64,000 bases of DNA from Flavobacterium sediminis (GTDB taxonomy: Bacteria > Bacteroidota > Bacteroidia > Flavobacteriales > Flavobacteriaceae). The notes beneath the pieces are model-generated. The model saw nothing but the letters and a program-made list of their open reading frames with translations. It ran no database searches and was not told the DNA's origin. Made by a program: the position numbers and the translations under genes. The stretch lies in contig NZ_CP029463.1 of assembly GCF_003148385.1 (NCBI RefSeq), forward strand, positions 992,001 to 1,056,000, written 5' to 3'. How positions within the stretch are numbered: the first letter of the stretch is position 1; the number at the start of each line of letters is the position of its first letter. Positions 11,726 through 50,171 of the stretch are shown one piece after another.

Positions 11726-12397
11726 ATGAAAAACAAATTCAGCTTAAATATCGACAATCCTTGTTCAGAGGACTTTAATAATTTTTCGTCTACTGCTAAA
11801 GGTGGATTTTGTGATTCCTGTAAAAAAGAAGTTATCGATTTTAGTAAAATGAATTCTGACGAAATCATCCAATACTTTAAAAAAGGTGATGTTATCTGTG
11901 GTAGGTTTAAACCCGATCAATTAAAAGTTTATGAAAAGAATCATCCAAAAAGGAAATATTTAAGTTTTTTTAGCGGAATTGGTTTAGCCTATCTATCTTT
12001 TTTTAATAGCGGAAACATTCAGGCTCAGGAAATAAAATCTCAGGAAGACCCTAACCAGAAACCCATTGAAGAAAGTAAACAGCAACAAGAATACATTACC
12101 GTAAAAGGAACGGTTGTAGATGAATTGGGACCTGTTGCCGGCGCTAATGTTGTTCTTGAAGGAACTGCAATAGGAACAACAACTGACTTTGACGGGAATT
12201 TTGAATTTCCTGAAAAACTTAAAAAAGGAGACGTATTACTTTTTAGTTATGTAGGCCTAGAATCAAAAAAGGTTATCATGGGCAACGAGAATTCCAATTT
12301 ACAGATTGAATTAAACGTTAATATGAGTTCCTGCACTCTTTACATGATGGGAAAAGTTGCTAAAAAAGGGGTATACTCTTCAAAAAAGAAAAAATAA
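11726..12397 (+). CDS. CarboxypepD_reg-like domain protein with N-terminal Cys motif
   Basis: A 223-aa protein of unknown function. The N-terminal 70 residues form a small domain with four spaced cysteines (NPCSEDF, GFCDSCKKEVIDFS, VICGRF) seen at the start of many Bacteroidota proteins. One hydrophobic segment (FFSGIGLAYLSFFNSG, about residues 80-97) suggests a membrane anchor. Residues about 125-190 are a carboxypeptidase-regulatory-like beta sandwich (VKGTVVDELGPVAGANVV, TTTDFDGNFEF), as found at the N-termini of TonB-dependent receptors. It lies 11 bp before the transglutaminase gene and probably shares its transcript. Confidence 0.7.
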   Translation: MKNKFSLNIDNPCSEDFNNFSSTAKGGFCDSCKKEVIDFSKMNSDEIIQYFKKGDVICGRFKPDQLKVYEKNHPKRKYLSFFSGIGLAYLSFFNSGNIQAQEIKSQEDPNQKPIEESKQQQEYITVKGTVVDELGPVAGANVVLEGTAIGTTTDFDGNFEFPEKLKKGDVLLFSYVGLESKKVIMGNENSNLQIELNVNMSSCTLYMMGKVAKKGVYSSKKKK

Positions 12398-12408
12398 GAT
12401 TTCCTTGC

Positions 12409-13404
12409 ATGAAAAGTATCCTCATACTCTTTTTATTTCTTTTCTTTACAACTGCAAATGCTCAAATTTCTGATTTTAATTCAATTGATCTAAAAAAAGC
12501 AGATAATATCGCTAAATTAAACGACGGAGAAAACTTAGAGAACCTTCCTGTCCTTTCGTATAAACTCACACATAAGCTTTCAACTGATATCGAAAAGTTC
12601 AGAGCTATTTTTTATTGGGTATGCCATAACATCTCTGCGGATGATTTCCTAAATTCAAAAGTCATCCAAATGCGAAAAAAATTCCAAAACGACAGTTTAG
12701 CTTATATCGCCTGGAGCAATAAGCATAAGAAAAAGACTTTTAAAAAACTGATCAAGCAAAAAACAACTGCCTGTACCGGTTATGCTTATTTAGTTAAAGA
12801 ATTGTGCTTTTTTGCAAATATTAAATGCGAAATTATTAATGGATACGGAAGAACATCTGATGACAATGTCAAATCTTTAGATCTGGTCAATCATTCATGG
12901 AATGCTGTTCAGGTAAATAACAAATGGTATTTATGCGATGCTACTTGGGCAAGCGGTTATTTAAATGAAAAAGGATATTTCATTAAAGAATATAATGATG
13001 GATATTTCTTAACAGAACCTAATCTATTTGAAAAAAATCATATCCCAGAAGACTCAAAATGGGCTCTCAAAACTAATAGTAAAGAAACAAAAGAAATATT
13101 TCCACTTGTTTACGGAGAAACTTTTAAGTTAAATATTGATCCCATATTGCCCAATGAAATGATCAATAGATTTAAAATAGGAGAAGAAATTGCATTTAGC
13201 TATAAAAGCTCAAATAGTGAATACAAAACATCGCTTGTAGAATTAATAGGATCAAGAGAAATTCCTTTTGAAATTTATAATATTCAAAAAAAAGATGATA
13301 TAACATCATTCGTATATAAATTTAACAAGAAAGGAAACTACGATGTACATCTTAAAATCAACGATTATATAGTTGCAACTTATATCATAAAAATAGTAGA
13401 CTAA
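12409..13404 (+). CDS. Secreted transglutaminase-like protein
   Basis: A 331-aa protein with a signal peptide (ends ...TTANAQ). The transglutaminase/peptidase-like core is at residues about 100-200. It has a complete Cys-His-Asp triad: cysteine in TTACTGYAYLV, histidine in NHSWNAVQV and aspartate in WYLCDATWASGYL. The C-terminal 120 residues are beta-rich and unassigned. Bacterial members act as peptidases or crosslinkers in the envelope, but the substrate here cannot be told. It probably forms a two-gene unit with the preceding carboxypepD_reg-like gene. Confidence 0.8.
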   Translation: MKSILILFLFLFFTTANAQISDFNSIDLKKADNIAKLNDGENLENLPVLSYKLTHKLSTDIEKFRAIFYWVCHNISADDFLNSKVIQMRKKFQNDSLAYIAWSNKHKKKTFKKLIKQKTTACTGYAYLVKELCFFANIKCEIINGYGRTSDDNVKSLDLVNHSWNAVQVNNKWYLCDATWASGYLNEKGYFIKEYNDGYFLTEPNLFEKNHIPEDSKWALKTNSKETKEIFPLVYGETFKLNIDPILPNEMINRFKIGEEIAFSYKSSNSEYKTSLVELIGSREIPFEIYNIQKKDDITSFVYKFNKKGNYDVHLKINDYIVATYIIKIVD

Positions 13405-30866: not shown

Positions 30867-30875
30867 TTTCAACTT

Positions 30876-30918
30876 GTGGTCCCACCTGGGCTCGAACCAG
30901 GGACCACCTGATTATGAG
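30876..30918 (-). repeat. Left attachment repeat (tRNA 3' fragment)
   Basis: 43 bp identical to the 3' half of the tRNA at 50,098-50,171, from the anticodon loop to the discriminator end. After it the sequence diverges from the tRNA. Confidence 0.92.
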
Positions 30919-33488: not shown

Positions 33489-33929
33489 TTAAAATAATCC
33501 TTCATTAGCCATACTCAAAAAGTTGTTTTTGGTAATAATGATATGGTCTAAAAGTGTGATTTCTAATAAATTTCCAGCTTCTTTAATTTTCTTAGTAATT
33601 TTAATATCCTGTTCGCTTGCTTTTAGTGTTCCACTTGGATGATTATGTGCAACAATTATTGAAGTCGCATTACACTTTAAAGCTACAGCAAAAAGTAATT
33701 TTAAATCGACTACAGTTCCAGCAGAACCACCTTTTGAAAGAGGATAAATCCCTAATACGTTATTTGCTCTATTTAATAATAGAACTTTGAATTCTTCTTG
33801 AAGTTCTATTGTATTTTGCGACCATGAATTGTATAACAAATCAAAGGCTGACTTTCCACAAGCTACTTTTGGTCTTACTCTGCTATTGGTTGAATAGCTA
33901 ACCTGAATTTCGGCAACATTATTTTCCAT
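33489..33929 (-). CDS. RadC-family JAB-domain protein
   Basis: A 146-aa protein with only the C-terminal JAB/MPN part of RadC. The JAMM metal site is present: VAHNHPSGTLKASEQD, with an upstream glutamate in the LQEEFKVLLLNRAN strand. LLDHIIITKNNFLSMANEGLF is the usual ending. These short RadC proteins are common on Bacteroidota mobile elements. Their biochemical role is unclear, and a DNA-repair role is not established. Confidence 0.9.
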   Translation of the reverse strand: MENNVAEIQVSYSTNSRVRPKVACGKSAFDLLYNSWSQNTIELQEEFKVLLLNRANNVLGIYPLSKGGSAGTVVDLKLLFAVALKCNATSIIVAHNHPSGTLKASEQDIKITKKIKEAGNLLEITLLDHIIITKNNFLSMANEGLF

Positions 33930-34019: not shown

Positions 34020-34439
34020 TTAAGCATGTTCTAAAACACCATTTTTGGAAAAGGTATGTTCTTCATCAATTCCTTGAATGAAATCATCTACTTTAGTAGC
34101 ACTTTTCTCAACATGTGATGTAATAGCGTTTTCTTGTTGCTGGTTTTCTTCAACATACTCAAATCTGTGAGCCAATGTGATAACTTCACCAGTATCTTTG
34201 ATAACATACTCATAAGGCTCACAAGTAACTTTCTCTACTTTACCAGGCAATTCAGAACCAATTAAAGCTTGACAAGTCATTTCATCAAATGTACTTGCAA
34301 TGTTTGCCTTTCTTGCAGTTACATAATGTTTCCCAGTAGCTTTGGATTTTACTAATTCAATTCCACCTTGAATCTCTAACACGAAGAAATCTTTTCCCTC
34401 CTCCGTTGTTCTTTTTTGATAGTTTACAATTCTTACCAT
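34020..34439 (-). CDS. Conserved-type island protein of unknown function
   Basis: 139 aa from the ATG at 34,439 (MVRIVNYQKRTTEEGKDFFV). The ATG at 34,514 would add a hydrophobic leader without support. It is a small beta-rich domain with FVLEIQGGIELVKSKATGKHY and KVEKVTCEPYEYVIKDTGEV, then an acidic low-complexity tail. Similar small proteins sit near RadC genes in Bacteroidota elements (recollection, not searched). Function unknown. Confidence 0.55.
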   Translation of the reverse strand: MVRIVNYQKRTTEEGKDFFVLEIQGGIELVKSKATGKHYVTARKANIASTFDEMTCQALIGSELPGKVEKVTCEPYEYVIKDTGEVITLAHRFEYVEENQQQENAITSHVEKSATKVDDFIQGIDEEHTFSKNGVLEHA

Positions 34440-34739
34440 TTCTTTAGTTTTTTGAGTTAAACATAAAATTTGTAACAACCTTTGATAAACCAGCAGAAGG
34501 ATAAAAACATTCACTACAAATGAATATCATTAATCCTGCTGGTAAATTTTGGATTGCTCCTAATGGGTGGGGGTATTTCGATGAGCTTTAGATAGGTGGG
34601 GGTAGTTTGTGAGGGTGTCTCAAAAATGCCTATTTTTTGTGTTGATTTTTTTTAAAAAATATAAAAATTCAAATATCTTATTAATTTAGTACTCAATAAG
34701 CAAGTAGTTCTTTTTTAGAAATTTATAAATTAATAATAT
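34440..34739. other. Upstream region of the defence operon with G-rich repeats
   Basis: 300 bp without a convincing gene. It contains an imperfect inverted repeat (ACCAGCAGAAGGAT at 34,489-34,502 against ATCCTGCTGGT at 34,533-34,543) and a G-rich stretch (34,565-34,615) with two copies of GGTGGGGGTA. It ends in an AT-rich promoter-like region with TAATTTAG at 34,682-34,689. No perfect TAnnTTTG box was found. Confidence 0.5.
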
Positions 34740-37700
34740 ATGAGTGCTATTTCAGCATTAAAAGGTTACCGTACACAATTTTTATATTCATTATACAGAA
34801 TATTAAGCAATCATAATGAGGAATATATTTTCAAAGTAGAAGGTAAATATGAAGACCTCGATATTTTAGACTCATCTTATAAATATATAGAAACTATACA
34901 GATTAAAAATAAAGGAGAAACACTAAGTTTTTCTGATATGTTCTCAAAAAAAGATTCATTTTTTAAAAGAGCTGAAGAATTAGTCTTGCAAGACCCTGAT
35001 GTAATTGTAAAAATAGTGTCTTTTAATAAAATAAGCGATGATTTAACAGACAAAGAAAAATTAAATAAAAAACTTCAAAAGAAAGGGTTTAAAAAAATAA
35101 ATATTGACAAAACTTTGACCAGCTATTGTAGTCCTGAAATAGTCGATGAAGAAACTCTTGTAAATAAGATAATTAGCATTATTAAGTCTTATAACATCTT
35201 CACTAATCCTGAAATAGCTTTGGAATTATTGCTATTCTGGATTTATAAATCAGGTGAGAATCAGAAAGAAATAAGAACTAAAAATTTATTTGAAGATTTA
35301 AATAAAATTGGAAAGTTTTTAAGTGAACAAAGCTCATTTAATAATCAATTCGGAAATTCAATTATTCCTTTAAGTATCAAAAGCCTAAAAAATGAAGATA
35401 CAAATCTTTTACATAAAGGATTTTATTATGGTGTTTCTGCAAAATTTGAGCATATTCTTGCTAACCTTGATGTAGTAAGAAATGAAAAACTTGAAATTAT
35501 AAATTCCTCACTAAAGAAAACTAATATTTTCTTTATTCATGGAGCATCAGGACAAGGAAAAAGCACATTAGCATACCGTTATCTACACAATTATGTAGAC
35601 AGTAACACAGCCTATGAATTAAAACTTTCTGACAGATTAGGGGAAGTTTTTGAAACTATAAACTGTTTAGATTCTCTTTCAAAAGGGTTAAAATTCCCAA
35701 TAACCCTGTACATAGATGTATCTCCCGAAAATAATTACTGGAATGAGGTTTTAAAGGAGCTTTCTACAAAATCTAATCTCAATTTTTTAATTACAATTCG
35801 ACAAGAAGATTGGAATAGAACCAGTTTAGGTGTTGATTTTGATTTTGATGATTTAGAATTAACATTTGATAAAAAAGAAGCTGAAATAATTTATAAATCT
35901 TTATCAGAATATAAATTAGACCTTAAGTTTACTGATTTTGAAGAATCTTGGCTTCAACATGGGGAAAGAGGGATGTTGTTAGAATATGTCTATCTTCTTA
36001 ATCAAGGTGACAAGCTTAAAGTAAGATTACAAAATCAAGTTAGAAGACTTGAAAAAGAAAACAGAATAGATGAACTTGAAATTTTACGATTTGTATGTCT
36101 ATGTGATTCTTATAGCTCAAAGATTAATTATGTTGCTCTGATTACAAGTTTAAATATAAATATTGGAATATCTAACTCTTTTGTTGATTTACTTGAAAAT
36201 GAATATTTATTAAAATTTAATGAAAATAAAAAATACTTAACAGGTTTACACCCTATACGTTCAAAATTATTATGTGAGATATTATTTTCAGAAAATGATT
36301 ATATTGATATTAACCATTATATAGATAAATCTCTTTCCCTTATTGACGAAAAAGACCTGCAAATATTTTTACTTAATAGTTTTGATAATGGTTATAGTGT
36401 TGAAACTTTAAATATACAATTAACTAATATTCAATTAAATTCTTTTACAGGACTAAACAATGTCTTTAATGCTCTCTTATGGAAAGGTATTTATGATTTT
36501 ATATTCATTAAAAACAAAGTTGTCTTTGATACTCTTTATAACAATTACAGAGGCTTATGGAATTTTATTATTCCATATGATTATTCTGAGGTTACAAGTG
36601 GAGCACTTCATGATTTATTTAAAGAATATATACCGAAAGAAGTCAATGAAAATATAGAAAAAATACAATCTCAATTTACCCCCAAAGAAGATGTATATGA
36701 ATATGTGAAAATTTGGTTAGAAAATAAAAAAAGTTTTAACTCTGAATGTTTTTTGGATACAGATTTAAGTTCTTTAGGTAGGTTTTTATTCTGGATTAGT
36801 CATTTAAAATTAAATGATAAAGTAAAAGTTAACTTGAATAAAGACAATATAATCAAGTTAATACAAGCCAATAACACATCATTAGGAAATATTTCAGAAC
36901 TTATTTTGGGTTTAGAATATTATAAATCATATGATAAATTACTTTTAGATATAAAAACTTATGCAATATCAAATCTCAGAAGCAGATATAACATTATTAA
37001 CTTAGATATTCAAGAACATATTGAATGTGTTTATTTTTATAATCCTGTTGATTTTGAAGACAACTCTAATTCAGGAAACAATTTTTTTAATGACAGAACA
37101 ATGGAAATAATAGACCTCTTGAGAAATGTTTTTCCATTTAAAGAGAAGTATAATATAGTTGGAATAGGCAAAAACTTTTTTGGAATCAATATGCCTTATG
37201 ATCCTTCTGAAAAAAGCATTGAAAATAAAAATTTACCAATACCCTATCTTGTTCAAATTAATGTCCTAATTAATAATTTGTACTTATACCAATACAGATA
37301 TGAGAGTTGGTCAAAGTATATTGAAGCAATACAAGCTAAGAGGAATAAATATAACGAACTAAGCTCTAAATTAATTAACTCTTTTTCAGATTATTTTCGA
37401 ACTAATAATTTTAAGTTTTTCATAGATATCATCTCTGAAATAGAGTTAGAGATTAAGAAAATAAAAACGATTCCTTTACCTAAAAACATATCCGATAATT
37501 GGGGGTATATATCAGAGGGGAAATCAAGAAATACTATAACTGAAAATCAAGAATCTCATGAAGATAAACAAATCAAATCAATCTCTTTAATAAAGTACGA
37601 ATCTTTCAGAAAAGCCCAAAGGGATTATTTCTCTTCAATTGAGAATTTTTTAAATCAAATTGGGCAAAATATTTTGTCATTATATAAAATAAGAACAGAA

Positions 37701-38747
37701 ATAGACAGTATTGATGATTATCATTCAGGAGCTATTACCAGCAATATAAAAAATGCATTAATTAATCATAGTTTATATATAACAATTTTTGAGAAACATT
37801 TTAATAAATTTTTCAATAAGTCAGATTTAGACAGAATGAATAAATCTGAAGAAGATAATCTTATAACTATGTTTTATTGTTGGAAACAAATTTTAAATCA
37901 AAAAGGGAATATCAACAATAAAGTTCGTAAAAATGCAATTGCAATGTTTTCTGAAACTAAAGAAAATCTAACAAAAAAAATAAAAAAAGAAAGACAAAAA
38001 ATATTTGAAGATTTTGGTTTATCATATACAATTGAGATAAATAATTCAAAAAGTAAGCTTGGAAAAACACTGTTATTAACATGTGATGTTAATTCTCAAA
38101 CATATTTGACATCACTTATAGTTGCACGTATATTTATCCAAAACTCCATTAACTCAGACTATTTTAGTTTTAAAAGAATAATTATTGAATCAAATATTGA
38201 TTCAGTAATTTATATTCCTCTCTTTGAAGGGAAAGCATTAAACAAAAGAGCAGTAGAAATATCACTACATAATCTTGATAATGATATTGATGAAGATAAT
38301 ATTTTTATGTATTTCAATACTTTTTCCAAAATTGAAAATAATATTATTTCACATTTAGACTTATCTTTTTGGAATGAAATTATCTGGGAAATTCAGGATT
38401 ATGAAAATATCATGGGAGAAATTTCTAACATGAAGGAACTAACAAACCAAGTTTTATCTATAGCCAAAGAAATAAAAGATTCTTTTGGAGAATCTATTTT
38501 TTTAAGATATAAAGGAGTTATTGATAATTTTCTGAATGAAGGGATAAAAAAATCTCAGAAAAGCCTAAATAGAATTGAAGAGCACTTAGACATAAAACTA
38601 TCTAATGAAATCAAAAATCTATTTAATAGGTATTCGTTTGACAATAATGATGTTAATCAATTAGAGATGTTGCAACAACATCTGACTGAAAATTATTATT
38701 TTTTCTGTGAAACCATGATATATAAACAAATTGAAAATGAATTATAG
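34740..38747 (+). CDS. Cap4/DUF4297-like nuclease fused to a STAND-type NTPase
   Basis: A 1335-aa putative anti-phage sensor-effector. Residues 1-110 look like a PD-(D/E)xK dsDNA nuclease of the DUF4297/Cap4 kind: GYRTQFLYSLYRIL, then E34, the acidic YEDLDIL (D39, D41) and ETIQIKNK with Gln54 and Lys56. A P-loop NTPase follows, with Walker A HGASGQGKST (Lys274), Walker B TLYIDVS (Asp326) and a sensor-like LITIRQEDWNR. The remaining roughly 850 residues are helical, rich in Lys, Asn and Ile, and unassigned; in STAND proteins this part senses the trigger. It is first in a three-gene operon with a CHAT protease and an ADP-ribosyltransferase. Domain names rest on motifs read by eye. Confidence 0.8.
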   Translation: MSAISALKGYRTQFLYSLYRILSNHNEEYIFKVEGKYEDLDILDSSYKYIETIQIKNKGETLSFSDMFSKKDSFFKRAEELVLQDPDVIVKIVSFNKISDDLTDKEKLNKKLQKKGFKKINIDKTLTSYCSPEIVDEETLVNKIISIIKSYNIFTNPEIALELLLFWIYKSGENQKEIRTKNLFEDLNKIGKFLSEQSSFNNQFGNSIIPLSIKSLKNEDTNLLHKGFYYGVSAKFEHILANLDVVRNEKLEIINSSLKKTNIFFIHGASGQGKSTLAYRYLHNYVDSNTAYELKLSDRLGEVFETINCLDSLSKGLKFPITLYIDVSPENNYWNEVLKELSTKSNLNFLITIRQEDWNRTSLGVDFDFDDLELTFDKKEAEIIYKSLSEYKLDLKFTDFEESWLQHGERGMLLEYVYLLNQGDKLKVRLQNQVRRLEKENRIDELEILRFVCLCDSYSSKINYVALITSLNINIGISNSFVDLLENEYLLKFNENKKYLTGLHPIRSKLLCEILFSENDYIDINHYIDKSLSLIDEKDLQIFLLNSFDNGYSVETLNIQLTNIQLNSFTGLNNVFNALLWKGIYDFIFIKNKVVFDTLYNNYRGLWNFIIPYDYSEVTSGALHDLFKEYIPKEVNENIEKIQSQFTPKEDVYEYVKIWLENKKSFNSECFLDTDLSSLGRFLFWISHLKLNDKVKVNLNKDNIIKLIQANNTSLGNISELILGLEYYKSYDKLLLDIKTYAISNLRSRYNIINLDIQEHIECVYFYNPVDFEDNSNSGNNFFNDRTMEIIDLLRNVFPFKEKYNIVGIGKNFFGINMPYDPSEKSIENKNLPIPYLVQINVLINNLYLYQYRYESWSKYIEAIQAKRNKYNELSSKLINSFSDYFRTNNFKFFIDIISEIELEIKKIKTIPLPKNISDNWGYISEGKSRNTITENQESHEDKQIKSISLIKYESFRKAQRDYFSSIENFLNQIGQNILSLYKIRTEIDSIDDYHSGAITSNIKNALINHSLYITIFEKHFNKFFNKSDLDRMNKSEEDNLITMFYCWKQILNQKGNINNKVRKNAIAMFSETKENLTKKIKKERQKIFEDFGLSYTIEINNSKSKLGKTLLLTCDVNSQTYLTSLIVARIFIQNSINSDYFSFKRIIIESNIDSVIYIPLFEGKALNKRAVEISLHNLDNDIDEDNIFMYFNTFSKIENNIISHLDLSFWNEIIWEIQDYENIMGEISNMKELTNQVLSIAKEIKDSFGESIFLRYKGVIDNFLNEGIKKSQKSLNRIEEHLDIKLSNEIKNLFNRYSFDNNDVNQLEMLQQHLTENYYFFCETMIYKQIENEL

Positions 38748-40632
38748 CCCACCTAAAATTGACAATAGATTTATTTGTATAATAAATAGAGATAATAAAG
38801 AATTGGCAGCATTGATTACAAGCTATATTAGTTCTCCCAATATGTATAATTTGATTTTTGAGTTCCCTTCAGTTACAACTGAACATTATGATTATTTAGA
38901 TGATGATATTGATGAACATCATATATCAAGAACAATTGCAAATGAGTTTAATATTAAAGTTAAAAACGCGATTAATCAAGTTTATGGTTGCGAATATTTA
39001 ATAATAGCAGGACTAAGTGAAGAACAAAAAAGTTATCTAACTTTCTTAGAAAAATACAACGTAATAGAAATTCAAAACTACTATGATGTTGAGACCAATC
39101 TTGAAGCATTTAATTCAAAAAAAAACATTCTTAAATGTAGGTCTTGTGATATTTTAAATGGATTACACAAAGCTATAAAGTCTAATTCTATTTTAAAAAT
39201 AGATGAACAAGCTGAAGAAGTTATAATCACACTTGAAGCTAATTCAGGCATTATTGTCGTTGAAGACATTAATAAGGTTTCATGCGTTATAAGTGTTATA
39301 TATGCGACGTCCTTAAATTTATCCTTATATGTAATTCCAGAAATAGATATTGATAAAAGAAAAATTTCAGATTTCATAGAAAAATGGAAGAATAGTAATA
39401 ATGATAGCTACTTATATGATTTAAGCTCACTTATTTATCCAAGTATTGAAAATGTTGATTTTGCATCTTATCAATTTGCAACTTTTTTTACTGTTGGGAT
39501 TCCATATTCACTAATAATAAAAAATGTGATACCCTGCACTCATGTACATCTTTATATAAATCCTGACTTTTTTGTCTTTAATGCTATTTATTATCAAAAT
39601 GCTTTTAATATAAATTCAGCAATTGTATTTTCTCCTTTAGAATTTATAGATGAAGAAACTGATAATATAATTAACACTTTAAAGAATAATAATTACTATG
39701 TAGCTGAATTAGTTGATAAGAATGCAAATGCAATCAATCTTGATTATCATATAAAAGAGTTCCCTTTTAATTTATTACATATTTGTAGTCATGGTGGAGA
39801 AATTGGAGGCTATGATGTTAGTTTTGAATTTATTGATAGAGATGGTAATAAACATATCGTAGAATATGATGAAGTAGTAACTTTTGATTTAACACAAATA
39901 GATTTTAAGAATCCTGAAGAAAAAGTACCTGTAGTATTTAAATACCTATGGAGAAAATTTGATGGTTACATTTGGAGAAGTGAGGAACTTAGAAGTAAAA
40001 ATTATCCCCATTATGTATATTCAGATATGCTAAATCAAATATCAAAAAGAGAAAACATGATTAGGAAACCTAAAGATTCAATAACAAATTCATGTGCAAT
40101 AAAATGTTATTCATCATACTATCAAGCTATGTTTAACATTATTGCTGGTATTCATTCTCCCATTATTTTTAACAATACCTGCTGGTCTTGGTCTGATATA
40201 GCTGACCATTTTATCAGTTCAGGTGCAAGAGGTTATATAGGAACTTTGTGGAATATTAATAATGATGTAGCGAAGCAAAGTGCTGAACATTTTTACTCAA
40301 ATTTATTTTCTACAACCATTATGAATTCACTTCATGATTCTTTAATATATTCTAAAGGAAGTAAGGATGAAAATATATACATATACTATGGACTTCATTT
40401 TTCATCATTAAAAAAGGGAATTTCTTTAAATAATAGTAAAGAAGAAGTAGTAATAAGATTGATTAGTTCTTTAGAAAGATGGAAAGAAAAATTATCTATA
40501 ACAAAAAAAGAATCAGTAAGAAAAAACATTCAAGAATTAATCAAATGGAATGCTACTTTATTAGCAACTAAATTTAAAAATGAAACTATAAATATTATTG
40601 GAGAACAGTTTAAAAAAGATAATGGGATATAG
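38737..40632 (+). CDS. CHAT-domain caspase-like protease
   Basis: 631 aa from the ATG at 38,737, which overlaps the upstream stop by 11 nt; a TTG two codons earlier is possible. The C-terminal half is a CHAT (caspase/separase-clan) domain with catalytic His352 in HICSHGGEIGG and Cys482 in NNTCWSWSDIADHF, followed by the typical GARGYIGTLWNINNDVA. Residues 1-300 are unassigned, possibly a partner-binding or degenerate protease half. CHAT proteases serve as effectors in several bacterial defence systems (gasdermin activation, type III-E CRISPR). Here it would be activated with, or by, the neighbouring STAND protein; that link is inference. Confidence 0.85.
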   Translation: MNYSPPKIDNRFICIINRDNKELAALITSYISSPNMYNLIFEFPSVTTEHYDYLDDDIDEHHISRTIANEFNIKVKNAINQVYGCEYLIIAGLSEEQKSYLTFLEKYNVIEIQNYYDVETNLEAFNSKKNILKCRSCDILNGLHKAIKSNSILKIDEQAEEVIITLEANSGIIVVEDINKVSCVISVIYATSLNLSLYVIPEIDIDKRKISDFIEKWKNSNNDSYLYDLSSLIYPSIENVDFASYQFATFFTVGIPYSLIIKNVIPCTHVHLYINPDFFVFNAIYYQNAFNINSAIVFSPLEFIDEETDNIINTLKNNNYYVAELVDKNANAINLDYHIKEFPFNLLHICSHGGEIGGYDVSFEFIDRDGNKHIVEYDEVVTFDLTQIDFKNPEEKVPVVFKYLWRKFDGYIWRSEELRSKNYPHYVYSDMLNQISKRENMIRKPKDSITNSCAIKCYSSYYQAMFNIIAGIHSPIIFNNTCWSWSDIADHFISSGARGYIGTLWNINNDVAKQSAEHFYSNLFSTTIMNSLHDSLIYSKGSKDENIYIYYGLHFSSLKKGISLNNSKEEVVIRLISSLERWKEKLSITKKESVRKNIQELIKWNATLLATKFKNETINIIGEQFKKDNGI

Positions 40633-41341
40633 TTATAAAAAAGTAGTTGAAATTTTATTTGAAATTTTATATAAAAAATATATAACTCAACTTATAAACA
40701 ATGACTTTAAGCCTAATGGATATTCATTTTTTATCAATACAACGGAAATTGATAATGCCATGGGAATGTATCAAAATTATTCATTACAAATTGAAAAAGA
40801 GTATAATAATTCTCATTTTTTTGATGGAACGGAATTATTACCTTATACAATAATAAAATATTACACAGGTTATTTTCACGAAAAAATTAACAATAACTTA
40901 AGAGGCATACTGCCTAATAATCAAAAATCATTAATAATTAATAAAATTCTAAAACATACAGAAATTCTAAAAAAAGAAATAGAAAAGTTTCCATTAAAGT
41001 CAAATTTTGTAGTAACTCGAAGAATTAGTAATACATTTTTAAAAGAAGTTTATTTAGAAAGAAAACAACTAAAGAAGAATGGAGTGATACAAGAATTAGC
41101 CTTTTTAAGCACTTCATTGGACTTGTTTTACAGAAAAGATTATGAAAGTAATTATTCTCCATTAAAAAATGAAACTATCATCATAATTAAAGTACCTAAA
41201 GGAATTAATGCATTATATCTTGAACCCATAAGTAATAGAGAAGAATTTGAATTATTACTTGATTCTGGTTTAAAAATGAAGATTGAAGATAAAAAAACAA
41301 TATTTGGAAATAATATAATTCTCACTCAGATAATTAAGTAA
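40622..41341 (+). CDS. Putative ADP-ribosyltransferase (R-STS-ExE type)
   Basis: 239 aa from the ATG at 40,622, overlapping the CHAT stop by 11 nt; a TTG at 40,598 would be eight codons longer. The C-terminal half carries the Vip2/C3-like ART signature in order: Arg133/134 in NFVVTRRIS, the LAFLSTSLD strand (Ser163-Thr-Ser), and E208-x-E210 in NREEFELLLDSG. The N-terminal helical half (residues 1-110) is unassigned. An ExE motif is typical of arginine-specific transferases, so modification of a host or phage protein is possible. No secretion signal is seen, which suits an intracellular effector. Confidence 0.72.
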   Translation: MGYSYKKVVEILFEILYKKYITQLINNDFKPNGYSFFINTTEIDNAMGMYQNYSLQIEKEYNNSHFFDGTELLPYTIIKYYTGYFHEKINNNLRGILPNNQKSLIINKILKHTEILKKEIEKFPLKSNFVVTRRISNTFLKEVYLERKQLKKNGVIQELAFLSTSLDLFYRKDYESNYSPLKNETIIIIKVPKGINALYLEPISNREEFELLLDSGLKMKIEDKKTIFGNNIILTQIIK

Positions 41342-41349
41342 AATTTAAA

Positions 41350-41383
41350 AAAATCCAATCTCTAATTTAAAAAGAGATTGGAT
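41350..41383 (-). terminator. Terminator between convergent ART and DUF3871-like genes
   Basis: An 11-bp stem ATCCAATCTCT/AGAGATTGGAT. The T7 tail is on the minus strand. Confidence 0.7.
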
Positions 41384-41387
41384 ACAT

Positions 41388-42410
41388 TTAACTCAAAAAC
41401 CAAGAATAGTTAGAATTACTATCACTTAGTGCATTTGAGATGCCTTTTGCAAATGAAAAGGCATTCACTCCTCTATCAAGGAAAGTATCAATATAAGAGC
41501 TTTTATTAGCTCCTGTAAATAGATTATATATGTTCCAAAGATTAATTTCTCCATTACTCTCTCTACAAAAACTTTCATCATTGTAATAATCTTTTGCAAT
41601 AGCAGAGATATGTCCATCATTCATAAGTAATTCAGGTAATAATGCTTTTTCATTCTTTGGTAAATAATTATACAATCTACTTTTACCAATAATTTGAGCA
41701 AACTGTTTTTCAGTTAATTTATAATCAACTAAATCATTCATACTCTTTATTTGCTGGTGTATATTATATGATTGTACAATTTCCATGATTTTACCTGATA
41801 GCTCCTGACTACTTGTAGCTTTAATCTCATCTTTAAATCCATCTGTAGAAACACAAAGATTACAGCATACCATATTTTGGAAGCCAATAAAAAACTTAAA
41901 CTTTTCAAAAGTCTTTTTGTTGTAAAGGTTTTCCAAATTGTAACTTCTTACTCCGCCTATGGTTAAAGCTAATTCATTACCATTAATATTTTCAGTAATT
42001 GAAGAAATCCTGATAATGAAAGCCATTCTCTCATAGTACATTGTTCTTTGATGTTCCAATAATTCCTTTGCTGGTACATGTAAAGCATCAGGAGTTCTAC
42101 CTCTAATTAAATGACTTGTCCTAATTTCAGGAGTATCTATCACTTCATTTGGGAATAATTTACTTATACCAGCAAAAGCAGAATCAATAAACTCTTGGTG
42201 AGATATGGTAATTTCGTTATCCTTTGTGAATACAGGAATAATGCAGTCTTCTTTTAATTGTGAAAGGCTAACCTCTTCTGTGTTAGCCTCTATAAATGGA
42301 GAAGTCTTTTTATAAGTTGGCACTTCTCTGTGAAAACCAGCAGAAGGAATAATTATTTGCTTTGCTGGTATTTGTACATCAGTTTCAATTGTGTGTAGTT
42401 CCATTTCCAT
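41388..42410 (-). CDS. DUF3871-family protein
   Basis: A 340-aa protein recalled as the DUF3871 family of Bacteroidota mobile elements. Characteristic stretches are PEIRTSHLIRGRTPDALHVP, YYERMAFIIRI and LTIGGVRSYNLENLYNKK, plus the C-terminal NLWNIYNLFTGANKSSYIDTFL. The fold resembles phage DUF932/Mu-like recombination-associated proteins, but no function is proven. Its start overlaps the stop of the upstream AAA ATPase by 26 nt, so the pair is translationally coupled and probably acts together. Confidence 0.7.
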   Translation of the reverse strand: MEMELHTIETDVQIPAKQIIIPSAGFHREVPTYKKTSPFIEANTEEVSLSQLKEDCIIPVFTKDNEITISHQEFIDSAFAGISKLFPNEVIDTPEIRTSHLIRGRTPDALHVPAKELLEHQRTMYYERMAFIIRISSITENINGNELALTIGGVRSYNLENLYNKKTFEKFKFFIGFQNMVCCNLCVSTDGFKDEIKATSSQELSGKIMEIVQSYNIHQQIKSMNDLVDYKLTEKQFAQIIGKSRLYNYLPKNEKALLPELLMNDGHISAIAKDYYNDESFCRESNGEINLWNIYNLFTGANKSSYIDTFLDRGVNAFSFAKGISNALSDSNSNYSWFLS

Positions 42411-43322: not shown

Positions 43323-43691
43323 TTATTTCACAAAATCATCTATTACATCCTTTAATTCATCTAAAAAAATAGGTTTAGAAAGAATTTTTATTTCACTTAA
43401 CCCTCTTTTTTTTAATTCCTCTTCAACCAAATTTCCTGTCAAAACAACTATGTTGTCATTTCCAAATCTTTTAATATCCTCAATTACTCCATAACCATCT
43501 TTTTCACTTGTAGGAGATAAATCTATATCAACAAAAATTAGGTCAAAATCTTTCACGTTTTTATAGTCTCCAAAATTTTGAGATTTATCAATATATTTTA
43601 CTGATAACTCATTATTAAAATCCAATTCATTAACATCTACAAAAGCATCCTTTACCTTTGGAATTTCATTTTCAAACACTAATATTTTCAT
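43323..43691 (-). CDS. Stand-alone response-regulator receiver domain
   Basis: A 122-aa single receiver domain with no output domain. The phospho-acceptor is Asp55 in DLIFVDIDLSP. The switch Thr is in IVVLTGN and the conserved Lys in ILSKPIFLDEL. The N-terminal acidic pocket is Glu7/Glu9 rather than Asp-Asp. It overlaps the kinase gene by 20 nt, so the pair is coupled. Without a DNA-binding domain it probably signals by protein contact. Confidence 0.82.
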   Translation of the reverse strand: MKILVFENEIPKVKDAFVDVNELDFNNELSVKYIDKSQNFGDYKNVKDFDLIFVDIDLSPTSEKDGYGVIEDIKRFGNDNIVVLTGNLVEEELKKRGLSEIKILSKPIFLDELKDVIDDFVK

Positions 43692-44604
43692 TTCTTAACT
43701 TCTTAATTTTTATTTCGTTATTGAAAGTTTTATTTTCTTGATCAATAAAAATTCTATTATTTATATTTTTCTTTCTTAATAATCTTCTAATAAAACTTAG
43801 ACCATGAGTTTTTCTACTATAAATTTCATCATTGTCCTTTAAATTATATAGACTAACTATTTCATCTAAATCGAGTTTGTTTCTCTCAAAATCTTTAATC
43901 TCATTAACAAATTTTATAGTAACAAAATCTTCTTGGATTGAAATTTCAACTTTTCTAACATGAGTACCATACTTGTTAATATTTTCAATTATATCTGTAA
44001 AGACAAAATCAAACATCATTTGATTAATTTCAATATCAAAATCAGATAAATCATCTATATTAATTATTACATCATCTATATTATTAAAATGAAAATACCA
44101 ATGTTTTCTTATGTCATCAACCAAAGTTTTTAATGAAATTATTTCGTCATTTTCATCAATAATATTATCTACCCCTTTTATTAAAATTTCTGCTTTTTTA
44201 ATGATTCCTTTTATTTCATTACTGTTATTATTATTCTTCAATCTTCCTTCAATATATTTTTTTTGCTCTGAGTTTATCTCCTGTTTAAAGTATCTATCTA
44301 TCAAACCAATTGTTGCAGTTACTGGAGATAATTTATTCTTCACAAAGTGTAAAGCATTTTGAGCATCAAAAACATAGGCAACTTTTTGTTTAATTATTTT
44401 TTGATTATGATTATTTACCTCAATCAAAGAATTACTCATAAAAAAAATCCTCGCTATGTATTCAAAAATTGGTCTTAAATTAGAAATCAATGATTCATTA
44501 AAAACATTCTCTTTTTTCAAAGAAATCATAAAGTAATAATCTTTATTCTGAACTTTATGATTTAACCAATAACAATTTTGATACTTTATATTATCAATGG
44601 TCAC
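43672..44604 (-). CDS. Histidine kinase part (GAF C-terminal half, H-box, HATPase)
   Basis: 310 aa from a GTG. Residues 8-55 look like the second half of a GAF domain. The H-box is ALHFVKNKLSPVTATIGLI with His86, and the HATPase N-box is FTDIIENINKYGTH. The glycine boxes are minimal (KTHGLSFIRRLLRKK). No good start codon exists and the frame is open back into the upstream gene. A single extra G in the GGG of the GGGTTTG near 44,661 joins it to the 6-TM gene as a 561-aa sensor kinase. A true -1 slip at G_GGT_TTG is the other option. Confidence 0.75.
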   Translation of the reverse strand: MTIDNIKYQNCYWLNHKVQNKDYYFMISLKKENVFNESLISNLRPIFEYIARIFFMSNSLIEVNNHNQKIIKQKVAYVFDAQNALHFVKNKLSPVTATIGLIDRYFKQEINSEQKKYIEGRLKNNNNSNEIKGIIKKAEILIKGVDNIIDENDEIISLKTLVDDIRKHWYFHFNNIDDVIINIDDLSDFDIEINQMMFDFVFTDIIENINKYGTHVRKVEISIQEDFVTIKFVNEIKDFERNKLDLDEIVSLYNLKDNDEIYSRKTHGLSFIRRLLRKKNINNRIFIDQENKTFNNEIKIKKLRNENISV

Positions 44605-44645
44605 AGAATCTTTAAGAGGATTTTTTTTAATCTTTGACCCAACTA

Positions 44646-45356
44646 TTAATTGTTCAAACCCAATGATGAAGTAATGTCATTATTAATTACAAACTTTGAT
44701 GCCTTTATCAATACCAGTTTTTCACTATTATTAATAAATAAAAAAATCTCATCTACTTGATTTATAATTTTGACCTTAGAATCATTAATTTTAGTTATTA
44801 CATCCTTTAATATTTTATGACTATTATTCTCATTTACATTTTCAATAAACAAATCCCCAATTAAAACTATAATTTCCTGATTTACAAATAAAAATGACTT
44901 CCTTATACTCAAAATAAAGATAAAAAAATAAAATATTATTGGAATCAAATGATGTGTTAATATTAAACTAAATTTATCAATATTCAATAGTGACAAATGT
45001 ACTCCTAAGACAAAATATATAAGTTTGTCATTTTTATTGGAATGACTTTGTACATTATAAATTAAGAGAAAAAAAGGCAAATAATTTAAAATATAATTAA
45101 GGTCTTTATTATACAAGAATATATTTATGATTGCCAAATCTAAAACCAACCTTACAACTCCTTTTCTTTCAATTTTAACAAAAAATAAATTCAAAAAAAG
45201 TAGAGCAATATATATTATTAATGAAGCATAGTAAATCCAATCACTAAAAAAATTTTGATTAAATATTATTATACTTACAAGTATAATAATCAAAACTATA
45301 CGAAGAATAAAAGAATTGAATCTCCTTATATCGTAATCAATATCGTTTAATGTCAT
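44646..45356 (-). CDS. Six-TM sensor part with GAF N-terminal half
   Basis: A 236-aa membrane protein. About six hydrophobic helices run from residue 18 to 155 (FILRIVLIIILVSIIIF; ASLIIYIALLFLNLFFV; LIPIIFYFFIFILSI). A cytoplasmic segment, ILKDVITKINDSKVKIINQV then DEIFLFINNSEKLVLIKAS, has the look of the first helix and strands of a GAF domain and stops abruptly after SSLGLNN. It begins directly after the stop of the 2-TM gene (TAA-ATG). It is best read as the N-terminal half of the downstream histidine kinase. Confidence 0.7.
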   Translation of the reverse strand: MTLNDIDYDIRRFNSFILRIVLIIILVSIIIFNQNFFSDWIYYASLIIYIALLFLNLFFVKIERKGVVRLVLDLAIINIFLYNKDLNYILNYLPFFLLIYNVQSHSNKNDKLIYFVLGVHLSLLNIDKFSLILTHHLIPIIFYFFIFILSIRKSFLFVNQEIIVLIGDLFIENVNENNSHKILKDVITKINDSKVKIINQVDEIFLFINNSEKLVLIKASKFVINNDITSSLGLNN

Positions 45357-46079
45357 TTATTGTAATTTTATTTTATTAAACATTTCCATTATTAAATAAT
45401 TCCCTATAACTAAAAATAAAAATGCTTTTTGAAAAGCTAATAAGATAACTCCCCAAAAGTTTAATGGTTTTACCTCCATTTTTTCATCTAATTCAAATAA
45501 ATAAGAAATTAGGTTTGCAAAATTATTTGACCACACACATTCTGTAAAACTTATTTTTTTGACCTCAATTATTGCAAATATTTCAAATTTAGCATCACAA
45601 AATATTAAAGTAGAAAAAAACAAATAGATTATAATCATTAATAATAAAATATATAAATTATAAGAAATACCCTTAAGAAATAATTTAAACAAACTGGTAA
45701 AAAAATCTTGCCCATTTTTAATTTTTTCCCAATAATATTTTAATTCAACATCATTTAAAATACACATCATCTCTTTGGCTTCATCATCATTACCATTTTT
45801 AGAAAGTGATTTAATAAGATGGTTTAACAATTCCCTTTGTTCACTTATGCTAAAAGGAGTTAACAGTTTTTCCATTTTATCAGGAGTTAATTTATTATAA
45901 TTATAACCTCTCAAATGAAAAATTTCAGAATATATTTCAAAAATTAATTTTAAGTCTTTGAAAGCATCATATTTTATGTAATTTTCAAACCTTCTTACAT
46001 TTTTTTGATATAAATAAAAGTGTTGTTCAAACACAATTTCTTTCTCCTGTAATGCTGCTCTTAATTTATTTTCTTCCAT
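45357..46079 (-). CDS. Two-TM protein heading the sensor operon
   Basis: A 240-aa protein of unknown family. The first 135 residues are soluble and helical (ENKLRAALQEKEIVFEQHF; SISEQRELLNHLIKSLSKNG). Then come a membrane helix (LYILLLMIIIYLFFSTLIFC), a roughly 45-residue external loop and a second helix (FWGVILLAFQKAFLFLVIGNY). As first gene of the operon it could be the membrane effector or stimulus receptor of the kinase. No sequence motif decides. Confidence 0.6.
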   Translation of the reverse strand: MEENKLRAALQEKEIVFEQHFYLYQKNVRRFENYIKYDAFKDLKLIFEIYSEIFHLRGYNYNKLTPDKMEKLLTPFSISEQRELLNHLIKSLSKNGNDDEAKEMMCILNDVELKYYWEKIKNGQDFFTSLFKLFLKGISYNLYILLLMIIIYLFFSTLIFCDAKFEIFAIIEVKKISFTECVWSNNFANLISYLFELDEKMEVKPLNFWGVILLAFQKAFLFLVIGNYLIMEMFNKIKLQ

Positions 46080-46112: not shown

Positions 46113-47321
46113 TTACATAATTAATCTTTCATTTTCTTTATCAATAACATCATCTTCAAAATCTTTTAAATATGCTGTTGTGATTGCAACATTTTTATGT
46201 CCCATAGATTGAGATACTATGTCAGTTGAAACTCCAATTTGTTTTAAATTTGTTGCATAACTATGCCTTGCTACATAACTACTTAAAGGTTTATCAACCC
46301 CAACTATTCCTGCAATTTTCTTCAAGTCACTATTAAACTTTTTTAGCTTTTTGTGTTTTCTATTTTGAATTTGAGTTGCAGTTAAATTATTACTTAATAA
46401 TATTGGGAAAACATAATCTGTTGTTGATGGTCTATTTCTATAAGAATCTAAAATTTCTTTGACAGGTTGTAGTATGTTGATGTTAAACTTCCCTTTAGTT
46501 TTTGACCTAATATAGGTTATTCTATCTCCTGAAACACTTGACCATTTTAACATCATAATATCAAAATAATTCATCCCTCTACAGTAATAAGAAAAGAGAA
46601 AAATTCTTTTAGCTTCTGCAAGATTTGGATATTTTGTTTCATCAAAATTCTCTATCAATCTTACCTCTTCTCTTGTTAATGCTTTTTTAATATTTCCAAC
46701 TTTTAACTTAGATACTTTATAAACCTTGAAAGGATAATACTTTTCATCAATAACATTTTTCTTGATTGCTCTATTATATAGTGAACGTAATTCTCTCATT
46801 TTAAAAGCTACCCCTCCATCTGAATTATTGTTTTCTCTCAAATAAACTTCGTACTTCTCCAAAAAAGTTGGTGTAATCTCCTTAAACATCAAGTTGTTTT
46901 TTTTATGAAAATTAAATACGGATTTCTTTGTTTCACTTAATGCTTTTGCATTTCCAGCTTTTCCTGACTTATTCAAATCTGAAATTACTTCATTCCAAAA
47001 TTCTAACACAGTAATTTTATTAGGTTCAATACCTCTAAACTTTTCTTCAAATTGGTCAAGACTAAAATCTATCTCTTCTAATTCAAAGTCATTGATAATC
47101 TTCAAAGCTTTCTCTCTCATCTTAGCTAACAACAAATTACTTTGTGTATGATTTGGAAATGTCTTCTTAAATTGAATGTTAACTTCATCCCAGTCTAATA
47201 AATTACACTTAAATCCTAATGAAATAATCTTTGACTTTCTGTTATTAGTTATTCTCAATATAACTGGATAAAGTCCTTCATTTGTTGATTTATCTCTTAA
47301 TAATATTTTTATACTTGCCAT
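46113..47321 (-). CDS. Tyrosine recombinase (island integrase)
   Basis: 402 aa from the ATG at 47,321 (MASIKILLRDKS); an ATG eleven codons upstream is less likely. The N-terminal arm-binding domain is typical of Bacteroidota integrases (YPVILRITNNRKSKIISLG). A SAM-like core-binding domain follows (residues about 110-210). The catalytic domain has Arg in YCRGMNYFDIMMLKW, Lys in RSKTKGKFNI, the second Arg in SSYVARHSYATNLK, His in QSMGHKNVAITTAYL and the nucleophilic Tyr in that last block. It fits integration into the tRNA 3' end at 50,097. Confidence 0.93.
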   Translation of the reverse strand: MASIKILLRDKSTNEGLYPVILRITNNRKSKIISLGFKCNLLDWDEVNIQFKKTFPNHTQSNLLLAKMREKALKIINDFELEEIDFSLDQFEEKFRGIEPNKITVLEFWNEVISDLNKSGKAGNAKALSETKKSVFNFHKKNNLMFKEITPTFLEKYEVYLRENNNSDGGVAFKMRELRSLYNRAIKKNVIDEKYYPFKVYKVSKLKVGNIKKALTREEVRLIENFDETKYPNLAEAKRIFLFSYYCRGMNYFDIMMLKWSSVSGDRITYIRSKTKGKFNINILQPVKEILDSYRNRPSTTDYVFPILLSNNLTATQIQNRKHKKLKKFNSDLKKIAGIVGVDKPLSSYVARHSYATNLKQIGVSTDIVSQSMGHKNVAITTAYLKDFEDDVIDKENERLIM

Positions 47322-47381
47322 AATTTTATATTTTGAGTTGACAAATTCTAACAATAGGAAGTGTGGAATTTGTCAATATTT

Positions 47382-50055: not shown

Positions 50056-50093
50056 AATAAAGCCTCCCAATTGTCTTGGAAGGCTTTATTTTA
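50056..50093 (-). terminator. tRNA terminator supplied by the island
   Basis: Imperfect stem AAATAAAGCCT/AGGCTTTATTT with an extended CCAA/TTGG part and a T-rich tail on the minus strand, directly downstream of the tRNA. Confidence 0.7.
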
Positions 50094-50094
50094 C

Positions 50095-50171
50095 TGGTGG
50101 TCCCACCTGGGCTCGAACCAGGGACCACCTGATTATGAGTCAGGTGCTCTAACCAACTGAGCTATAGGACC
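50095..50171 (-). tRNA. tRNA with CAU anticodon (Met or lysidine-modified Ile2), integration site
   Basis: A 74-nt cloverleaf plus encoded CCA. Acceptor GGTCCTA/TGGGACC (one G-T pair), D-arm GCTC...GAGC, anticodon stem CCTGA/TCAGG with loop CTCATAA, T-arm CCTGG/CCAGG with TTCGAGC. CAU could be elongator Met or Ile2 read through TilS; the sequence alone does not settle it. Its 3' half is the island attachment site, and the gene is left intact on this side. Confidence 0.95.
50097..50139 (-). repeat. Right attachment repeat within the tRNA
   Basis: 43-bp copy identical to 30,876-30,918; it continues as a functional tRNA beyond 50,139. Confidence 0.92.

Follow-up and report, generated by a model that had tools for sequence, protein, structure and literature searches.

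Do three overlapping genes on a mobile island of Flavobacterium sediminis, coding for a nuclease-STAND NTPase, a CHAT protease and an ADP-ribosyltransferase (ART), form one defence system, and how might their products act together? The locus was found in a stretch of 64,000 nucleotides (contig NZ_CP029463.1, positions 992,001 to 1,056,000; hereafter the window), for which a preliminary description had proposed a tRNA-integrated island carrying a single three-gene defence operon at 34737..41341. Our tentative reading, to which we give somewhat less than an even chance, is that a nuclease-STAND protein gained a CHAT-ART pair and uses it as a sensor-protease-effector relay. That the three genes make up one system is plausible from their anatomy and from a few recurring pairs.

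Organisation of the operon

The operon consists of the following features (window coordinates):

34740..38747, plus strand: sensor gene (nuclease-STAND), 1335 aa, ATG start at 34740
38737..40632, plus strand: CHAT protease gene, 631 aa from the ATG, with H352/C482
40622..41341, plus strand: ADP-ribosyltransferase gene, 239 aa, with R133, S163-T164-S165 and E208-x-E210
41353..41383, plus strand: 11-bp stem-loop, a likely terminator, located where the ART and DUF3871 genes converge

All three ORFs are intact and lie on the plus strand (34740-41341), so that the three overlapping genes and the end at 41341 given by the preliminary description hold, while the beginning of the STAND gene is moved to the ATG at 34740. 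The stop of the STAND gene (38747) lies beyond the ATG of the CHAT gene (38737), giving an 11-nt overlap, and an overlap of the same length is formed by the CHAT stop (40632) and the ART ATG (40622). The TTG starts chosen by the ORF tool are located 6 nt (CHAT) and 24 nt (ART) before these ATGs, and H352/C482, numbered here from the ATG, become 354/484 when counted from the TTG at 38731. The region 3' of the ART gene folds into a hairpin (fold z-score -5.45, 41336-41395); a simple terminator scan has no entry for the stem-loop. The two start/stop overlaps and the hairpin after the third gene delimit the three genes as one unit, the transcript of which is apparently translation-coupled. Chance ORFs were considered as well, and are ruled out by the family matches and conserved catalytic residues.

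The overlaps speak against the possibility that independent systems have simply been stacked, i.e. that the nuclease-STAND protein, a CHAT protease working on its own (similar in kind to Borvo, a single-gene system) and the ART happen to share a transcript within a cargo slot and act separately, a reading which we consider unlikely. According to the ORF reading, no fourth gene, such as an antitoxin, is present 3' in the operon. The ART has no signal-like start by eye, and its role is likely cytosolic; since the operon holds no antitoxin-like gene, a cytosolic ART would need some other restraint.

Domain assignment and conserved residues

The layout of the first protein comprises a Cap4/DUF4297-type nuclease (~5-196), a STAND NTPase (~203-586) and a long, mostly helical C-terminal region. 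The STAND NTPase is matched by Pfam with 28.8 bits (E 1.2e-6), which is below the curated cut-off of 34. The nuclease domain of the window protein has no Pfam match, and its Cap4/DUF4297-type fold (DUF4297 having the accession PF14130) is assigned to residues 5-196 from the predicted structure. The structure model was built without residues 1201-1335; the residues after 560 are mostly helical in it, and the fold search covered mainly 5-529. K56 and K274 are invariant in all 32 aligned sequences (window protein included), and K56 is present at 90% or more in a set of 42 rows.

The second protein is matched by the Pfam CHAT family (PF12770) with 28.2 bits against a cut-off of 24, and thus combines a score above the curated cut-off with a caspase-clan fold and a His/Cys dyad; it is a protease of the caspase/gingipain fold. 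The catalytic pair, including C482, is invariant in 42 of 42 aligned sequences. The third protein matches ADPrib_exo_Tox (PF03496) with 48.4 bits against 23.4, and its profile also matches ARTs of solved structure, namely Certhrax (E 2e-10), C3larvin and C3. R133, S163-T164-S165 and E208-x-E210 are invariant in all 15 ART sequences, the E-x-E motif being the signature of arginine-type ARTs. The domain calls of the preliminary description are thus supported, by Pfam for CHAT and ART, by a sub-cut-off match for STAND and by the predicted structure for the nuclease, and none of the nuclease, CHAT and ART folds or families is missing; the residues it had singled out (K56, K274, Cys482 and E210) are conserved.

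Alignment with its 14 relatives shows in the ART no insertion that these lack, and only some 40 residues of leader ahead of the conserved core. No gate through which a protease would control it, as the relay implies, is therefore evident from this comparison, from which a gate common to the whole family would escape.

Mobile island and cargo slot

The operon is enclosed by these features:

30872..30918: left attachment repeat, 47 bp, a direct repeat 98% identical to 50093-50139
33489-33929, minus strand: RadC gene, left border of the cargo slot
34020-34514, minus strand: 164-aa ORF, left border of the cargo slot
41388..42410, minus strand: DUF3871 gene (PF12987, E 1.7e-135), right border of the cargo slot
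46113..47354, minus strand: putative tyrosine-type integrase of the island, identified by eye from its translation
50093..50139: right attachment repeat, overlapping tRNA-Met at its 3' end
50095-50171, minus strand: tRNA-Met, with its 3' end within the right 47-bp repeat

Two 47-bp repeats, of which the right one coincides with the tRNA-Met 3' end, and the integrase-like gene bear out the proposal of a tRNA-integrated island. Homologs of the integrase are found at 50-67% identity in sister islands L086, L087, L090, L096, L101 and L103, and at 26-32% in L047, L092, L093 and L104. The repeats bound some 19 kb of AT-rich DNA, whose GC content is 0.21-0.32 per 1-kb step between 31 and 50 kb, compared to 0.32-0.42 outside it, where a single step, at 13 kb, is lower (0.27).

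Homologs of DUF3871 occur in 36 of 249 genus genomes, the own genome included. A slot delimited by DUF3871 and the 164-aa ORF is present in 17 of the 21 islands viewed (20 fetched ones, to which the own genome contributes two, and L047; slot calls were made by reading), where it is filled in 16 cases and empty in one (L097). The exceptions are L094, which is truncated, and L102, L104 and L105, in which the arrangement is different. The own genome has two more DUF3871 loci, one with the same slot and other cargo (L092) and one arranged otherwise (L105). The cargo scan took in 49 proteins, namely the three of the window, the L046 STAND protein, two from L104 and 43 ORFs selected in 14 of the 17 slots; among the first 25 of 506 PADLOC and the first 25 of 47 Pfam families, the cargo scores for Type I and III restriction-modification, LmuB (Lamassu-like), TIR_2/SEFIR, Abi_2, ABC-3C CTDs, GmrSD_N and QueC. 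It is because the slots of sister islands hold defence genes that a defence role, as suggested by the preliminary description, is likely for the trio as cargo of a mobile island integrated at tRNA-Met. This context provides the best evidence for the role, and it is silent on mechanism. In L047, an island with the same backbone, the slot contains a STAND relative of 47% identity, which an apparent insertion sequence splits, and a 257-aa ORF outside the scan. The STAND relative being the only recognised defence gene there, this slot is in favour of independent systems.

Distribution of the three genes

At E 1e-3, a search of the protein database found 271 relatives of CHAT, at least 384 of STAND (own included) and 15 of ART (own included). 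No phage, plasmid or IMG/VR relatives were found for CHAT and ART; for STAND there are 11 distant plasmid records, one phage record and one IMG/VR locus (L036, in which the next ORF starts about 316 nt further on). A profile scan of contigs with the CHAT alignment gave 29 other loci, for which a one-sequence query gave none; broken or partial CHAT genes (L025, L027, L029 and L030) were kept among the 29. Neither STAND nor ART was found beside CHAT in any of these loci (blastp, ORFs of at least 60 aa, flanks of up to 10 kb, several of them shorter), or anywhere in the 26 CHAT-bearing genomes searched (L025, L027 and L030 were left out, and the own genome served as positive control). Conversely, seven STAND-bearing congeners have neither CHAT nor ART in their fetched flanks or genome-wide; the flank of L052 ends with its contig just after the STAND gene. 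CHAT was found in 1/40, 1/395 and 1/395 sampled genomes, each time the own genome (some genomes may be shared between the second and third samples). STAND is present in 8 of 398 genus genomes at E 1e-100 and, at E 1e-20, in 4 of 397 genomes sampled from the family, the own genome included in both counts; the three other family matches are distant (26-29%), and their fetched flanks are without CHAT or ART. The complete trio is thus seen in one genome only, and is not a widely conserved unit.

That STAND and CHAT each occur without the other genes in the loci examined is in agreement with a stack of independent systems. The 29 CHAT loci devoid of an ART of the window family also imply another substrate or role for the protease there, as would be the case if the STAND protein activated its own nuclease, CHAT and the ART independently, with CHAT cleaving host or phage proteins and not the ART. 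The absence of a visible gating insertion in the ART relative to its relatives points in the same direction, but parallel activation leaves no evident restraint on the ART, and we regard it as rather improbable.

The relay draws on the pairs that do recur. In Tenacibaculum KUL118, CHAT (P0001) and ART (P0122) have consecutive locus tags and are 68% and 67% identical to those of the window; this matched identity is difficult to reconcile with stacked, independent systems. In Dokdonia Asnod1-B02, CHAT (P0066) and STAND (P0147) are on one chromosome. These two pairs are also supported by shared organism names. A further likely pair is suggested by the equal size (12719 bp) of the contigs carrying CHAT P0077 and STAND P0145, such a coincidence between CHAT and STAND having a chance of 23% anywhere and of 3.8% at 12 kb or more in trials with jittered lengths. 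No other pair is present among the matches listed (the best 120 of 271 for CHAT and the best 120 of 384 for STAND). The claim of one conserved three-gene system is therefore weakly supported, with only pairs recurring; its conservation as a unit elsewhere is largely contradicted, by 0 of 29 CHAT loci and 0 of 7 STAND congeners.

The KUL118 pair could also be taken to mean that CHAT and ART are the core, CHAT restraining the ART in a toxin-antitoxin-like manner until a phage disturbs the pair, and that the STAND nuclease was added later. Three-gene systems of an ART toxin, an antitoxin and a SecB chaperone have been described, as far as the cited part of PMC7159879 goes. Such a guard pair is nonetheless very unlikely, as the invariance of the CHAT catalytic pair (42/42) implies that proteolysis matters, and the KUL118 contig, of only 5518 bp, may end short of a STAND gene.

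In three species, CHAT also adjoins a member of a second nSTAND family, which argues against its acting alone in a stack of systems. In L003, L005 and L018 (Aquaticitalea, Lacinutrix and Nonlabens), it is divergent from, and 85-118 bp away from, a 1252-aa protein (split into two ORFs in L018), which matches nSTAND3 in L003 and has homologs of that copy in L005 and L018. The profile of the window STAND family does not match these nSTAND3-type proteins. Identities among the three loci are 81-93% for CHAT and 84-97% for the nSTAND3-type protein, as if the two genes had moved together. The N-terminus of the nSTAND3-type protein looks nuclease-like by eye, and a relative of 25% identity is located downstream of CHAT in L011. 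In L007, L008, L012 and L015, CHAT directly follows DUF5712 and a TraG/TrwB-like gene, and so lies within mobilisation genes (both families were scanned in L007, and the other three loci have homologs). In L019, a 248-aa gene (11858-12604) begins 3 nt after CHAT; it has an ART-like beginning by eye and no profile match, and could constitute a second CHAT-effector pairing. As for STAND, in L046 (8001-14774) a relative is directly followed by a KAP-type NTPase gene, so that the nuclease-STAND family appears to gain varied partners: CHAT and ART in the window, the KAP-type NTPase in L046, and neither in L047.

Comparison with known systems

No named system matching the trio was found in PADLOC or in the literature searched, in line with the novelty claimed earlier. 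PADLOC gave no match for CHAT or ART, and PDC-S01 (weak, E 0.049) as the sole match for STAND. One of the closest likenesses is with Avs (AVAST), especially Avs3/Avs4 and the SIR2-STAND Avs5, which have a central STAND NTPase with a Walker A motif, present here too, and an N-terminal effector domain, to which the predicted Cap4/DUF4297-type fold (5-196) would correspond; the window operon differs by its additional CHAT and ART genes. Avs proteins further have a TPR-like C-terminal sensor and bind a phage protein such as terminase or portal; for the C-terminal region of the window protein, the model shows mostly helices after residue 560, in a part largely beyond the reach of the fold search. 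No PADLOC model named Avs was matched by the window at E 5, or by the 32 aligned STAND sequences at E 0.01, the presence of such models in the library being unconfirmed. Unlike in CBASS Cap4, HerA-DUF and Lamassu LmuA, the Cap4/DUF4297 nuclease is fused to a STAND NTPase and not to SAVED or a partner ATPase.

Craspase TPR-CHAT (Csx29), SAVED-CHAT and Borvo are likewise CHAT defence proteases, whereas the window operon has no CRISPR partner. None of the 42 CHAT members matches a Borvo-named PADLOC model at E 1, again with the presence of such a model in the library unconfirmed; the part of PMC10952713 cited here counts Borvo among the CHAT systems. In CmdTAC-type systems, as presented in the cited parts of PMC7159879 and PMC11618068, the ART is likewise the toxic component among three genes, alongside an antitoxin and a SecB-like chaperone. 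None of the three window genes has a match of either kind, and the partners of the ART here are a STAND nuclease and a protease. The cited sections of PMC7159879 also catalogue STAND and other NTPases with caspase-like peptidases among conflict systems, and do not describe the trio.

The arrangement of sensor, protease and separate enzymatic effector is shared with the AVAST and Hachiman nuclease-protease pairs and the canu loci, where partner proteases activate pro-nucleases (cited portion of PMC12799240). Those systems use a trypsin-like protease or an Ig-containing caspase, with a nuclease of the MBL type as effector, as opposed to CHAT and an ART with no evident gating loop here; MBL, trypsin and Ig domains were not found in any of the three proteins (Pfam, E 5). 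In the CARD-NLR-like LypABC, lysis needs both peptidase and ATPase functions, according to the cited part of PMC13236601. The protease-activated effectors of bacterial immunity covered by the cited parts of these sources are nucleases (PMC12799240) and gasdermins (PMC13236601).

Proposed mechanism

The relay is plausible, being consistent with the anatomy and having analogues among these published systems. The nuclease-STAND protein would be an NLR-like (Avs-like) sensor, the C-terminal region of which binds a phage product. Its STAND ATPase would then oligomerise, bringing the N-terminal Cap4/DUF4297-type domains to cut DNA, and the activated assembly would switch on the CHAT protease. Cleavage by CHAT could license the ART, directly or by release from a complex, and the ART would ADP-ribosylate a host or phage component as a second, abortive arm. 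The trigger, the oligomerisation, the order of the steps and the target of the ART are what we infer here. A more specific version, in which an inflammasome- or apoptosome-like chain from STAND through CHAT to ART ends in two outputs, DNA cutting as well as ADP-ribosylation, and provides the first protease-licensed ART effector in immunity, is doubtful but a serious possibility. Because no gate is evident in the ART, independent stacked systems and parallel activation of the effectors stay live rivals to the relay. The operon would be a concrete candidate for protease-activated immunity with a new effector class, in a defence system seemingly assembled from parts usually found apart, and it offers a directly testable set of catalytic mutants.

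A second gene block of the island

The island carries a second block of genes on the minus strand (43323-46079), for which blastp gave no homolog in the fetched stretches of 21 sister islands and Pfam was uninformative for the two ORFs scanned. By eye, it consists of a receiver-like ORF, a GHKL-ATPase-looking one and two membrane-protein-like ones, and it may be a further two-component-like system of the Detocs kind.
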